A DNA stretch of 64,000 bases from Bacteroidetes bacterium RIFCSPLOWO2_12_FULL_35_15. GTDB taxonomy: Bacteria > Bacteroidota > Bacteroidia > 2-12-FULL-35-15. The position numbers and the translations under genes are program-made. This document shows, piece by piece, positions 28,563 through 59,668 of this stretch. The stretch spans positions 1 through 64,000 of the forward strand of contig MEPB01000018.1 in the NCBI GenBank assembly GCA_001769385.1, in the 5' to 3' direction. Under the pieces are notes generated by a model. That model searched no databases and was not told where the DNA came from. It was given only the letters and a program-made list of their open reading frames with translations. The stretch's first letter is position 1; every line of letters starts with the position of its first letter.

Positions 28563-28781
28563 ACTAGTTTTTATAAGTGAATTTGCAGCAAAGCTTTATA
28601 TAACTGAAAATTAAATCGGCAGCGTCATTTCGTGGAACATTCTGCGGTGAAGCAGACATTCAATCTCCATGTAAAGCAGTGATTATGGATTGCCTCATTT
28701 CTCGCAATGACGTATTAACAAAAATGTTTTTATTAAAAATTTGTAACATTAGGATCATAAATATATGTTGTCTAAAACTTT
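28563..28781. repeat. Gap with an imperfect GCGTCATT...AATGACG element
   Basis: The 219-bp gap contains a diverged copy (about 28621-28711) of the palindromic repeat that is perfect at 56125-56196. Nothing else is visible apart from AT-rich sequence. Confidence 0.4.
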
Positions 28782-53284: not shown

Positions 53285-55969
53285 ATGCTTACACGAATTT
53301 CATTAATTAACTCCAAAGTTTTTGGAAAAGCGGAGCTAAAGCTCGATAACTGCGATTCCCTTCAGCTGGTTGGCCCTAATAACATAGGGAAAAGCACCTT
53401 GATCTATGCCTTGAACTTTTTGTTTATTGTGGATGGTCAAAAAATGTCATTCAGCGGTCAACGTAAAGGTGATAAAGAAACCATACATCATTATTTTCCT
53501 ACTCACAACAAAAGTTTCCTGGTGTTTGAGATAAACAAGTTAGGCTACTATTGTATTCTTGTAAAACGCAATACAGAAGGAGAACTGGAATATTATAAAA
53601 TTGAAAGTGAATATAATGAAGAGTATTTCTTTGAAACAGAAGGAACACACCAACGTTTGCTTAATTTTGATGAAGTGCTTGGAAAGCTTATTGTAAAAGG
53701 AATTGCTCATACCAAATTCAGTACAAAAACCGATGTGTTTAATCATGTTTATCACCGGGGAACAAAAAACAATGCTGTTGTTTGGTTAGAAGATACTGTG
53801 AAAGCAGATGGATTAAGCAATAACTTTTCTAAAGTATATCGTTATCTGATCAATTCAAAACTGATCACCAACAAAACATTAAAAGAATCATTGATCATTG
53901 CAGATAATCGGGAGAACGAAAGTTTGAACTTTTCGCAGAAGAACAAAAAGGATATCATCGATCTGTTACGCATCAACGAGGAAATAAAAAGTATTAAGTC
54001 GGTACGAACAGATTTTCTTGAGTTCAGGGAACTGGTAAAAATGTACAATTCAAAAACAAAAATTGTAAGTGAATTACTTTTTGCATTTAATAATTCCTAC
54101 TCAACAGCAATTCCTGAACTGGAAATTACCTCTTTGGATAAGGCAAAAAATATTTCTACCATCCAAAATGAGATCAACGAAATATTAAAACCAAAGGAAT
54201 TAAAATTTGCTTCCCGCATAGGAGAAAAAAACTCCGATATAAAAAATAAAGCGACTGTTTTATTTGAAAAACAAAGTGAATTAGACGAAATAAATAAGTT
54301 TGAAACGGTTCAATTCTTGAAGGAATCATTAAAGAATCTGGATACTGACCGTAAAGAAATAGAAACCAGAATTACAACTGTTGAAAGCCAGAAACTTTCA
54401 AGCAAACAACTTGAATTGCGTATTGATAAGCTGAATCAGCAAATCACATCTCATGAGAACCAGATCGAAAATTACAGTAATCTATTGATCCACAAAATTT
54501 CGGATAATGAAGATGTAAAGAAATTATTGAATTCTGTTTTATCTGAACAGGTAACAAGCCTATCCAGTAAACAGATCAAAAAACCAATTCAAAAAATATC
54601 CGATAAAATACTTGCGATCTTTGATGGACAAATTGATATTTCAAAAGGCATTGAATTAAAAGAATTTAAGTCGATAAAGGAATTAAAAGAGGAATTAAAA
54701 TCTTTACAAGCCGAGAAAAAGCAAACAGAAGGACTTCTTAAAACTGTTGTTGATAAAGAGAAGACAGAGTCTAAATTAAAATCTATTTTATCTGAAATAG
54801 AACTGATCAAAGAAAAAATAAAACGAATTGATAACAAACCAAACCTGGAACATCAGATCACTGCTGTTAATCTGGATGTAAAAAAATTACAGCACGAGAA
54901 AAAAGATCTGGAAGATTTGTTAAACACATTAGTAAAAGAAATTTCTCAAAAAGAAATTACGCTTGAAAAATTACAGGAAGAAAAACGAAACATGGAGCTT
55001 CGTGTGAAGGAGTTGAAGGAGCGTAAGATAGAAACAGAGTCAATAGAAATAGAGCCTACCGAGTATGAAACAAATGATAATCTGGATTATATCTATTCTA
55101 AAATTCAGATCCATCAGAAAGATCGTTTTGAATTAAAAACCAAGAAAGACAGCACATTTGATAATTTGAAATACCGTTTACGTAACAGCAGTGCTGATGA
55201 AGAGCAATTTATAAAATTTGTGGAAGAAGAAATAGCTTGTTTAACTGATAAAGAAAGAAGCATTGATGGCTTGTTGCAGAGCATCTCCACACAATTTGCA
55301 AATCCTGCATATACATTGCTGAAACGTTACGAGGAGTTCAAAGAATTTGTTTACACCAAGTTCAACGATAAACTATCTCAAACACGTATTTCCAATATCG
55401 AATCGATGAAAATTGAATTGTTGGATAATGAACGTATTATAGGTGAATTGAAAAAAATCAGCTCTATTCAGGAGTTCAACGGGCAAATGAGCTTTGAGTT
55501 TGACCAATCAGAGAACCTGAAAGTATTGAACAGTTATTTGGATAGTGGTAGAAAAGTAAGTTTTGATGAGTTGTTTAATATTGAATTATTACTTCAAATA
55601 CAAGGAACAGATAAACGCGTGGATCTTGCAAATCAGGTGGAGTCGGATGGTACAGACAGAATGATCCGACTGGTGATGATCATGTCAATCATTAACAGGA
55701 TGGCCGTTTTAGATGAGCAAAATAAAATCGCATTGTTCATTGATGAGGTTGCAACCATTGATAAACAGAACAGACCGGAGATCGTTAAATTCTGTAAGGA
55801 CCATAATTTCATTCCGATTTTTGCTGCACCGGATGCAGTAGAAGGGTTCAATAAATATTATTTTATTTATGGTTCAAAAACAAAAGTGAATATTAACGAA
55901 AAACAAAATGCAGTAATTGTTGAGCGCAACGGAGTTGTTAAAGGACTTGTTAAACCTCTTAAAAAATAA
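53285..55969 (+). CDS. Compact SMC/MukB-like ATPase of an Mks-type condensin set
   Basis: An 894-residue ABC-type DNA-clamping ATPase. N-terminal head with Walker A GPNNIGKST at 30-38. Then long coiled coils (about 270-640: repeated KSELDEIN-, EIELIKEKIKRID- and LEKLQEEKRNMELRVKELKERK-like heptads) around a small hinge-like stretch. The C-terminal head has a SDGTDRMIRLVMIMS signature region and Walker B KIALFIDEVA. It begins LTRISLINSKVFGKAELKLDNC, as in SMC-like ATPases. It is much shorter than MukB (about 1480) or JetC (about 1100). The two following genes look like a MukF-type and a MukE-type partner, so I place it in the MksB group. Role: chromosome organisation or defence against extrachromosomal DNA. 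Confidence 0.78.
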   Translation: MLTRISLINSKVFGKAELKLDNCDSLQLVGPNNIGKSTLIYALNFLFIVDGQKMSFSGQRKGDKETIHHYFPTHNKSFLVFEINKLGYYCILVKRNTEGELEYYKIESEYNEEYFFETEGTHQRLLNFDEVLGKLIVKGIAHTKFSTKTDVFNHVYHRGTKNNAVVWLEDTVKADGLSNNFSKVYRYLINSKLITNKTLKESLIIADNRENESLNFSQKNKKDIIDLLRINEEIKSIKSVRTDFLEFRELVKMYNSKTKIVSELLFAFNNSYSTAIPELEITSLDKAKNISTIQNEINEILKPKELKFASRIGEKNSDIKNKATVLFEKQSELDEINKFETVQFLKESLKNLDTDRKEIETRITTVESQKLSSKQLELRIDKLNQQITSHENQIENYSNLLIHKISDNEDVKKLLNSVLSEQVTSLSSKQIKKPIQKISDKILAIFDGQIDISKGIELKEFKSIKELKEELKSLQAEKKQTEGLLKTVVDKEKTESKLKSILSEIELIKEKIKRIDNKPNLEHQITAVNLDVKKLQHEKKDLEDLLNTLVKEISQKEITLEKLQEEKRNMELRVKELKERKIETESIEIEPTEYETNDNLDYIYSKIQIHQKDRFELKTKKDSTFDNLKYRLRNSSADEEQFIKFVEEEIACLTDKERSIDGLLQSISTQFANPAYTLLKRYEEFKEFVYTKFNDKLSQTRISNIESMKIELLDNERIIGELKKISSIQEFNGQMSFEFDQSENLKVLNSYLDSGRKVSFDELFNIELLLQIQGTDKRVDLANQVESDGTDRMIRLVMIMSIINRMAVLDEQNKIALFIDEVATIDKQNRPEIVKFCKDHNFIPIFAAPDAVEGFNKYYFIYGSKTKVNINEKQNAVIVERNGVVKGLVKPLKK

Positions 55970-56299
55970 ACCAAAAAAAAGCCACAGATTCACAGATTTG
56001 ATTTATGAATTATTCCGATAAAGAATATTCATTACAAAAGGAAAGCTGTCAACTAACAAATGAAATAATGAACAGAATAGGTTAAGGAAAGAAAGAATAA
56101 ATTCATTGAATTATTTATACGCTTCGTCATTGCGAGGAACGAAGCAATCCACAAGCAAAGCATTATTTAGAGATTGCTTCGTTCCTCGCAATGACGATAA
56201 TTTGAGTTGTTTTAGTATTTCAGGATCTTAACAAATAGAATAAAAATTAATCAGTGAATCTGTGATACATTATTTTATAAAAATTTAAAGAATTAAAGA
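55970..56299. repeat. 330-bp gap with a perfect 25-bp-stem palindromic element
   Basis: 56125-56149 pairs perfectly with 56172-56196 (arms begin CGTCATTGCGAGGAACGAAG), a 72-bp REP-like element lying inside the SMC-kleisin operon. Related, diverged pieces occur at 1530-1563 and 28621-28711. The rest is AT-rich, with no ORF. Confidence 0.7.
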
Positions 56300-57493
56300 A
56301 TGAAAGCAGAACCAAAAACCATCCTGCGTTTTTTATTGGAGTATTTTGATATTGTTGCCGACTTATTTGAAACACAATCAAAAGAGGGGATCATTACTTA
56401 TGAAGTGTTGAACCAGATTACCGGTAAACATGGCAGTGATATTAAAACGCAATTGCTTGACTATAAAATATTAGGTGCAGTTAATGACAATTTTGAAATC
56501 AGAACCGTTTATTATAATCTGATTGAATTTGTTTTAAGTGAATTCAAACCGATGCTGCCCGAAACAATTGAAAAATATCATGTTTCAATTGCTGAATTAT
56601 TCCGGAAGATCAAGGAAAATCTAAATGGCGACAGAGTCATCTTAAATCAAAGATTAGCAGAATTGAGTAACGAGATACGTTCATTTTATGAAATGGTTGA
56701 AAAAAACACCATCAGCTTATTGAATGAAACACGCGAATTAAAAGCAAATGTGAAAAAGATAGATTATCGCGAAAAGATAATCCGCGCTTCCCGCTGGATA
56801 GATGAATATATTATTCCTTTGAACAAAATTCTGGATATCAATCATGTTTCATCCATTGCAAATAAATTATATGATATTTCGGAATACTCGAATAAATACC
56901 GTTTGAATTTTGATGATGAGAATACCCGTGTTCAATTTGAAAAACTTTATTTTCAACTGATCCAGGTAAACGATAATTTATTGCGTCAATCAAAAATATT
57001 AACAAAGGAATTATTACCATTGATCGAACGTATTCGTACGGAATCAACCATATTGTCAGGTTGGATCACCTTCCTTAAAAATCCATATAAACAAAAGGTT
57101 CCAAAGATCTTTGAGGCAAAACGTACCAATATATATTCAAAAAATACATTTTTTAATGCCGCAGAATTTTTCGAGCAATTTAAAAATGATAGCGATGTGT
57201 TTTTCGAAGAAGAATCAAATGATACAGAAAAATGGATCTTTGACAGGGAGCATTATACAGAGAAACTAAAATCAAATTTACCGGTAGCAAATTTCTTTAA
57301 ATGGTGCAATGCTACCTTGAAAGATGAATATAAAAAAGTAGAGATCGAAAAATTCTTTGCCTTGACCAGTCTTGCATTTGACGAAAATCTTCAGCTGGAA
57401 TATCCTGCAAAGGCCGAATACGAAAAAATTAAAATAAACGATTTAACATTAACGGTTCCCAAAATAACAATCAATAACCATGGAATTTCCTAA
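56300..57493 (+). CDS. Putative MukF/MksF-like kleisin
   Basis: A 397-residue protein, mostly helical. An N-terminal winged-helix-like part (TILRFLLEYFDIVADLFETQSKEGIITYEVLNQITG) is followed by a long helical region (about 95-290, FRKIKENLNGDRVILNQRLAELSNEI-type) and a small C-terminal domain ending LTLTVPKITINNHG. This layout fits MukF/JetA-type kleisins, which bridge the SMC heads. It follows the SMC gene by 330 bp and overlaps the MksE-like gene by 14 bp. The family assignment rests on architecture and context, not on a signature motif. Confidence 0.65.
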   Translation: MKAEPKTILRFLLEYFDIVADLFETQSKEGIITYEVLNQITGKHGSDIKTQLLDYKILGAVNDNFEIRTVYYNLIEFVLSEFKPMLPETIEKYHVSIAELFRKIKENLNGDRVILNQRLAELSNEIRSFYEMVEKNTISLLNETRELKANVKKIDYREKIIRASRWIDEYIIPLNKILDINHVSSIANKLYDISEYSNKYRLNFDDENTRVQFEKLYFQLIQVNDNLLRQSKILTKELLPLIERIRTESTILSGWITFLKNPYKQKVPKIFEAKRTNIYSKNTFFNAAEFFEQFKNDSDVFFEEESNDTEKWIFDREHYTEKLKSNLPVANFFKWCNATLKDEYKKVEIEKFFALTSLAFDENLQLEYPAKAEYEKIKINDLTLTVPKITINNHGIS

Positions 57494-58004
57494 TCACCAT
57501 CGCCAAATAGTTGAAGACTTAATGAGCGGTAAATTTATTTTGCCGCAAGAACGAGCATTTGAAGTGCTTAGAGAGAATGAAGATTTTTATATAAATTTCT
57601 TCAAAGCTTCTTTTAACTATGATCTAAAAGTAAACCAGGATTTTGTTTACCTGGTTTCGGATGAATCAAATGAAACACTCTCCCGTGACATCTGTATTTT
57701 TATTGCATTGCTGAGCTATGAGCTTGACAGAGATGGGAAAAATTTTCTGGAACGTATTCAATTCTCTGAGTTTGAAATGGAAGAAATTGAAAGCTATTTT
57801 ACGAATTCTTCCTACATCGATTTGATCTTATCTAACAAACAATTGAAAGATGTGGATTCCCGTAAAAATTTCATAAACACATTAAACCGGAGAAATATCA
57901 TTGAAAAAACTGCGGATAATCGTTTTGTATTTACATCCGCACATAAATTCTTTATGGATTTTGCAACTGATATTGTGAAATTTGAAAATGCAGAAAAAGA
58001 ATAA
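57480..58004 (+). CDS. Putative MukE/MksE-like condensin subunit
   Basis: A 174-residue protein with two winged-helix-like regions: LSRDICIFIALLSYELDRDGKNF and FINTLNRRNIIEKTADNRFVFTSAHKFFMDFA. This is the size and style of MksE/JetB, which bind the kleisin. It overlaps the preceding gene by 14 bp, showing translational coupling. No JetD-type nuclease gene follows; the next gene is 314 bp away and unrelated. Confidence 0.65.
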   Translation: MEFPNHHRQIVEDLMSGKFILPQERAFEVLRENEDFYINFFKASFNYDLKVNQDFVYLVSDESNETLSRDICIFIALLSYELDRDGKNFLERIQFSEFEMEEIESYFTNSSYIDLILSNKQLKDVDSRKNFINTLNRRNIIEKTADNRFVFTSAHKFFMDFATDIVKFENAEKE

Positions 58005-58318: not shown

Positions 58319-58864
58319 ATGAGTGATAAAAAAAACAAGGAAATTTCATGTATTCCTGTTAAGCAATTGCTTAATTTTGTTCAAAAAGAATGCAATAAAT
58401 ACGATATTTCTGCTATTTATAATGCTATTTTGGCTATATATGGTAACGATAAACGCAGATTAATATCGCTAAATTTTTATATAGATTCAGAAAACAAAAA
58501 AGACATAATAAAATTTATTAGTCAAAAAGGAAAAGAATCTGCTATAAAAAAAAGAATGCAAATGGCAATACATTCTATTCTGACCAAAAAAAGAAATAAT
58601 GATTTATATGAAATTGAATATACTGTCAACCATAATGGATATACCTGTTATGTTGGAGCATTAAAATTTCATGCCCAGGAAAATACAAGAATAATAAGTA
58701 GAGAATATAATGAAGATTCTTGTACTTCAATTGTAAAAGTTGAAGGATATAAAAAGAAAGTAGAAAAAAACACAGGAAAATATAAAAATAGACTTGAAGC
58801 TGCATCAAGGATCCAGTATTATTTAATAGATGAAATATCTAAAAATAAAATATTCTTTAAATGA
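58319..58864 (+). CDS. Unrecognised 181-residue protein, first gene of AT-rich operon
   Basis: Soluble, lysine-rich protein (ISCIPVKQLLNFVQKECNKYDISAIYNAIL at the start, a central VNHNGYTCYVGALKFHAQENTRI beta segment, and an EAASRIQYYLIDEI helix at the end). Codon use leans to ATA, TAT and AAA more than in neighbours. It overlaps the Xre gene by 4 bp (ATGA), so the two are translationally coupled. No domain recognised. Confidence 0.6.
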   Translation: MSDKKNKEISCIPVKQLLNFVQKECNKYDISAIYNAILAIYGNDKRRLISLNFYIDSENKKDIIKFISQKGKESAIKKRMQMAIHSILTKKRNNDLYEIEYTVNHNGYTCYVGALKFHAQENTRIISREYNEDSCTSIVKVEGYKKKVEKNTGKYKNRLEAASRIQYYLIDEISKNKIFFK

Positions 58865-59277
58865 AAAAAGTAATAAAACATAAGAAAGATATTATACAAA
58901 AATCATTAATGTATAATAATCGAAATGAAGAGATTGAGATGCTATCTCATATGGTTAATTCCGACTATGTAGACGCTATAAGGAACGCTTTATTTTCAAG
59001 AAATATATCTCCTTCCAGCTTAGCTGATGATATTGGTGTTTCAAGAAGTTATGTATCACAAATATTTAATGGAAGTAGACATATAAATATTTCTTTTATA
59101 ACAAGAATTAGAAGAGAATATGCTATACCATTGGAACTTATAGATACATCAAGACATTTTAATAATATTACATTTTTTGTATTTGTAATAAATGTTGTAG
59201 ATAATAATGATTTGTATTCAGAAACAATTAATATATCTAACGAACCAAATATAGTAAAACTTGTAATTAGTAAATAA
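58861..59277 (+). CDS. Xre-family HTH protein
   Basis: A 138-residue protein with a Cro/cI-type HTH at about 38-90 (IRNALFSRNISPSSLADDIGVSRSYVSQIFNGSRHINISFITRI in two parts around SYVSQIFNGS). The C-terminal part is beta-rich (NITFFVFVINVVDNNDLYSETI) and may bind a partner such as the following protein. It is the middle gene of a three-gene operon with 4-bp overlap upstream and 1-bp gap downstream. An antitoxin or regulator role is possible. Confidence 0.82.
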   Translation: MKKVIKHKKDIIQKSLMYNNRNEEIEMLSHMVNSDYVDAIRNALFSRNISPSSLADDIGVSRSYVSQIFNGSRHINISFITRIRREYAIPLELIDTSRHFNNITFFVFVINVVDNNDLYSETINISNEPNIVKLVISK

Positions 59278-59278
59278 A

Positions 59279-59668
59279 ATGATACAAATTAAAAATATTT
59301 TATCTTCTAAATCAATTATTGTTGATCAAAATGGACAACTTTCAATAAACCAAATTGTTGATGATATTGCTTGTCAATCCGTCCCGACCAGATTGACTGA
59401 ATTATGTTTTATATTGTTTTTTGAAAGAGATATGAAGGATTCAAACACATTGAATGGTGTTGAAATTACATTATATTTAAATGAAACTATAATCAGTAAA
59501 AATATATTGAATATAGATTTTAAAGGAAGGAAACACAATAGAACAATTGCAGAGTTATCTAATTTAAGTATTACTGCATTAGGAGAATTAAAAATAGTTG
59601 CAAGATTAGAAAACGTAAAAATAGGAGAACATAAAATTGATATTTTAAAAGCAGATATCAATAGTTAA
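59279..59668 (+). CDS. Beta-rich 129-residue protein, DUF6941-like
   Basis: The order VDQNGQLSINQIVDDIACQSVPT ... LCFILFFERD ... LGELKIVARLENVKIGEHKIDI is that of the small beta-sandwich proteins with an N-x-LS-I start and a repeated hydrophobic pattern (DUF6941-like; from memory, tentative). The gene lies 1 bp after the Xre gene. Function is unknown. Third gene of the AT-rich operon. Confidence 0.55.
   Translation: MIQIKNILSSKSIIVDQNGQLSINQIVDDIACQSVPTRLTELCFILFFERDMKDSNTLNGVEITLYLNETIISKNILNIDFKGRKHNRTIAELSNLSITALGELKIVARLENVKIGEHKIDILKADINS

Follow-up and report, generated by a model that had tools for sequence, protein, structure and literature searches.

In enterobacteria, the condensin Smc-ScpAB is replaced by MukBEF (PMC10586767), while B. 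longum and T. muris possess only a distant MksBEF (PMC10197239). The published order of Mks operons is mksFEB(G) (PMC10123090). A Hi-C study also describes two gut Bacteroidetes without a known condensin, whose SMC complexes are called unidentified (PMC10197239). The window analysed here, a stretch of 64,000 nucleotides from a Bacteroidetes genome assembly, contains three consecutive genes that we call B, F and E. We consider it likely that they encode a complete, nuclease-free condensin of the MksBEF type that acts as the housekeeping chromosome organiser of its genus in place of Smc-ScpAB. The features of the locus are as follows.

53285..55969, + strand: B, a MukB/MksB-type SMC ATPase of 894 aa (open reading frame, motifs, AlphaFold model and fold matches)
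53372..53395, + strand: Walker A motif of B, GPNNIGKS (aa 30-37), with N32, N33, G35, K36 and S37 invariant in 17 sequences
55640..55654, + strand: signature-like ABC motif of B, ESDGT (aa 786-790), with S787, G789 and T790 invariant
55727..55747, + strand: Walker B motif of B, ..FIDE, ending in the invariant D820-E821
55983..56264, no strand assigned: probable MITE/REP-like insert in the gap between B and F (nested inverted repeats)
56300..57493, + strand: F, a kleisin of MukF/JetA fold, 397 aa (open reading frame, AlphaFold model, fold and profile matches)
57480..58004, + strand: E, an MksE (KITE) subunit of 174 aa (Pfam PF21980, E = 2.9e-21)

The initial annotation had described an SMC protein, a kleisin-like protein and an MksE-like protein encoded together, with Walker A and B motifs in the first and a 14-bp overlap of the last two genes, and this description holds: the open reading frames lie as reported, all on the + strand, both motifs are intact with their key residues invariant in relatives, and the start of E overlaps the stop of F by 14 nt. 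Of 36 related loci, 32 have the same overlap. Against the nearest congeners, dN/dS is 0.03-0.09 for B, F and E each, a mark of strong purifying selection. The low dN/dS and the recurring overlap together indicate that all three are real genes and not products of chance.

As for the families of the three proteins, E is an MksE, its match to PF21980 reaching 77 bits where the cut-off is 27. Neither B nor F matched any family model above its cut-off, F has no Pfam match (ScpA included), and phmmer and hmmsearch comparisons of B, F and E with PDB sequences returned nothing meaningful, so that the membership of F and B rests on the comparison of folds and profiles. The AlphaFold model of F is of modest confidence (pLDDT 72, pTM 0.44), with a winged helix predicted at both ends, a helical middle and a low-confidence linker at about aa 267-313. 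Foldseek with this model places JetA or MukF at ranks 1-4, and in VIA-align the eight highest rows are MukF chains (Z of about 12-13) with a large rmsd, which probably reflects a different orientation of the modelled domains. The profile of F also aligns over its full length (357 columns, hhalign 93.8%) with the kleisin of L163, an F-E-B operon whose MksE is clear; the profile comparison detected no relation between F and the Wadjet kleisin encoded at G000:C37 in the same genome as the window. The model of B, likewise of modest confidence (pLDDT 69, pTM 0.38), matches MukB at ranks 1-4 (E 3e-14 to 6e-12), followed by Rad50 and JetC. The ATPase head is split into N- and C-terminal parts, and the model predicts that stretches at about aa 218-400 and 465-700 pair as an antiparallel coiled coil around a small hinge region of low confidence (about aa 400-465). 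The short SMC protein fits the description of MksB (PMC4255302). Thus, PF21980 on E and the folds of F and B support the link to Mks that had been proposed from the sequence, and the profile searches suggested at the time have placed E in MksE, with B and F assigned by fold and profile. We conclude that the trio is a MksBEF-type complex.

The window and every related trio examined share the gene order B-F-E, and none of them has the F-E-B order that is typical of MksBEF operons without strictly defining them. The initial annotation had spoken of a reversed order; the SMC gene does come first, but the arrangement is a permutation of F-E-B that keeps F before E rather than a reversal. The gap between B and F measures 330 nt in the window and mostly 0-30 nt in relatives. 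It holds an outer inverted repeat of 16 nt (55983-55998/56249-56264) and a perfect inner inverted repeat of 26 nt (56124-56149/56172-56197) with arms 22 nt apart. Given these repeats and the short gaps in relatives, the gap has probably been enlarged by insertion of a small mobile or repetitive element. The 26-nt repeat is probably a repetitive element of the genome; a related half-site with three mismatches lies at 28688-28711 of the window. No Rfam element was found in the window. A nuclease remnant in the gap was considered and rejected (best tblastn E of 3.5). In another locus (L045:3790-8317, genome G019), about 4.5 kb with two open reading frames of 318 and 1149 aa is inserted between B and F.

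The trio is core in its genus. B is present in 32 of 36 genomes, among them all 26 with a completeness of 90% or more; completeness is 64-80% in the four that gave no match. ScpA (PF02616) and the SMC hinge (PF06470) were each found in none of the 36, and in the sample of relatives the same four outside genera possess both. Related loci have a miaB-like gene (cluster c4, 14 loci) and lgt (c5, 9 loci) as usual neighbours, the former upstream of the trio in most congeners and the latter often downstream; in the window, the genes upstream are instead ribH, one for a TPR protein and recF, as judged by eye from their products. No close plasmid or phage relatives of the trio were found: the sequence relatives of B on plasmids are distant, partial ones, and for F neither plasmids nor phages yielded any. 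In two plasmid regions that we examined, gene lengths suggest the order F-E-SMC-nuclease. Behind the operon, at 58319-59668, lie three small genes encoding a 181-aa protein without an assigned family, a 138-aa HTH_3 protein and a 129-aa protein with a weak DUF6941 match; they were not found at related loci and possibly form an accessory insert.

Beyond the genus the picture is less uniform. In a second family (f11), B occurs in 39 of 46 genomes, and seven genomes that are at least 90% complete, four of them from one genus, have no detectable B, so the trio is not strictly universal there. In a sample of 296 Bacteroidia, B was matched in 41 (36 strongly) and ScpA in 69, and a single genome, G221, has both, its B copy bearing a nuclease gene. 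The mutual exclusion of B and ScpA is significant when counted by genomes (p = 5e-4) and by genera (0.02) but not by family (0.38). About 190 of the 296 gave neither match; in these, a condensin may be dispensable, or other condensins may escape these profiles. Three genomes of family f9 (G307, G259 and G173; loci L162-L164) contain divergent MksBEF trios in the order F-E-B, whose SMC is about 900 aa long and near which no nuclease was recognised. One genome of the same genus as the window (G030, locus L057) has a B of only 50% identity, which clusters outside the genus with the nuclease-bearing copy of G221; this copy was possibly replaced from outside.

The trio could conceivably be a solitary condensin with an auxiliary part, useful without being the main organiser, comparable to MksBEF beside Smc in P. 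aeruginosa, with segregation achieved mostly by other means. The f11 genomes without the trio and the many sampled Bacteroidia with neither system would be in keeping with this, as would the mild phenotype of the P. aeruginosa mksB deletion (PMC4255302). However, we regard it as unlikely, since the trio is core and strongly constrained in a genus in which no Smc-ScpAB is detected, and since the divergent G030 copy looks as if it had been replaced, not lost.

Another possibility is that the trio forms the sensing part of a Wadjet-type plasmid defence whose nuclease is encoded elsewhere, and in its favour a homologous trio does carry such a gene. A second B-F-E copy in the same genome (G000:C31), 31-36% identical to the window trio, has a 269-aa gene between B and F that matches DUF7281/JetD_C weakly and encodes a TOPRIM-like nuclease. 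The survey of neighbourhoods for a fourth gene, proposed in the initial annotation, found a homologue of this nuclease in G221; G292/L090 (probably a single genome), G276 and G349 have other nuclease genes in the same position. Five related trios thus carry a nuclease gene, always in the slot between B and F, and the nucleases of C31 and G221 share E-N and D-x-D-F-x-G residues that fit a TOPRIM site. The genome holds three JetD-type genes away from the window trio, but each adjoins its own, other SMC genes. As had been noted, no JetD-type gene lies beside the window trio, and none was found on its entire contig. Within the genus, D-type nucleases occur in only three of 36 genomes (G000, G008 and G020), never near this trio, and JetD_C passes in G020 only, whereas B is found in every genome of at least 90% completeness. 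Such rarity means that an unlinked effector cannot be the general partner of the trio. Defence systems usually have a patchy distribution, whereas B is core in the genus. A defence core with a distant nuclease therefore seems quite improbable to us. Of the two alternatives raised by the initial annotation, a minimal chromosome-organising complex is favoured and plasmid restriction with an unlinked effector is unlikely. Finally, it is scarcely credible that B is a repair ATPase of the RecN/SbcC/Rad50 type without kinship to its neighbours, the outcome that had been named as speaking against the Mks link, for although Rad50 chains appear among its structural matches, MukB scores above them, and MksE and a MukF-fold kleisin accompany B in every complete locus examined.

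The more appealing scenario remains that of a chromosome organiser, since the trio is core in the genus, ScpA and the SMC hinge are missing, the usual neighbourhood is a housekeeping one and no JetD-type nuclease was found in 33 of 36 genomes. As regards assembly, loop extrusion and the chromosomal role, we infer by analogy with MukBEF and Wadjet that two B subunits would dimerise through the small hinge, that F would link one head, at its neck, to the other, at its cap, and that a dimer of E would bind the F linker and clamp DNA onto the heads. Cycles of ATP binding and hydrolysis could then drive DNA loop extrusion, compacting the chromosome and aiding its segregation.

On a quick tree of B with long branches, at least five switches of nuclease state are required, and hence the family seems to shift between nuclease-free and nuclease-bearing forms. 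These changes may be gains, swaps or frequent losses of an old gene. Identity among the nucleases stands at 30-38% however close or distant their B proteins are, also for B proteins that are 74% identical. A strict rule by which the nuclease occurs only alongside Smc-ScpAB was rejected, as G276 and G292 have the nuclease and no ScpA. It is tempting, if rather doubtful, to propose that the B-F-E family alternates between the roles of chromosome condensin and plasmid cutter as a single TOPRIM nuclease gene is gained, lost or swapped at one fixed position between B and F, and that in some species without ScpA (G276, G292) the nuclease-bearing complex, the sole one of the family found, might serve both roles. 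The C31 locus itself (L007:6965-17496) is Wadjet-like, its genes standing in the order B-nuclease-F-E between an upstream WYL regulator and downstream SbcD/SbcC-like genes; PADLOC recognised none of its B, nuclease, F and E proteins. Two more Wadjet-type loci lie in the same genome (L155 at C37 and L156 at C52). C37 shares the WYL regulator and SbcD/SbcC-like neighbours with C31, although its SMC complex belongs to a different family, which looks like an exchange of the core within common flanks, and C52 has a WYL regulator of the same kind.

In the open-licence literature we found no description of the SMC-first order, of a nuclease gene placed between B and F, or of such a trio being core in a Bacteroidia genus that lacks Smc-ScpAB. 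The trio appears to be the sole conserved chromosome organiser in this uncultured Bacteroidota group. It provides a conserved candidate condensin for Bacteroidia that lack Smc-ScpAB, other than the two gut species of the Hi-C study, within a family that has both nuclease-free and nuclease-bearing members. It does not by itself explain Bacteroides, because most sampled Bacteroidia have no match to the B-F-E family. If our reading is right, the proposed transition between condensin and defence (PMC10586767) becomes testable by comparison of close relatives.

Among known systems, the trio is set apart from Smc-ScpAB by the lack of PF06470 and PF02616 throughout the genus. Its kleisin, KITE and SMC subunits belong to the same superfamily as those of Wadjet (JetABCD/MksBEFG), and the homologous C31 copy has the JetD-like TOPRIM nuclease gene. 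However, no JetD adjoins the window trio, the nuclease of the B-F-E family sits between B and F and not at the end, and PADLOC matches to proteins of the family are weak or absent. With MukBEF of Escherichia coli the trio shares the three kinds of subunit, the probable role of standing in for Smc-ScpAB and the closest structural matches of B and F, but E. coli MukB, at 1486 aa, is much longer than B. MksBEF, as in Pseudomonas aeruginosa, resembles it in the short coiled coil of the SMC, the MukF-like kleisin, the PF21980-type MksE and the lack of a nuclease. The trio differs from MksBEF in that B and F fall below the cut-off of every family model, in its B-F-E instead of F-E-B order, and in belonging to a genome without detected Smc-ScpAB, so that it is probably the main condensin.
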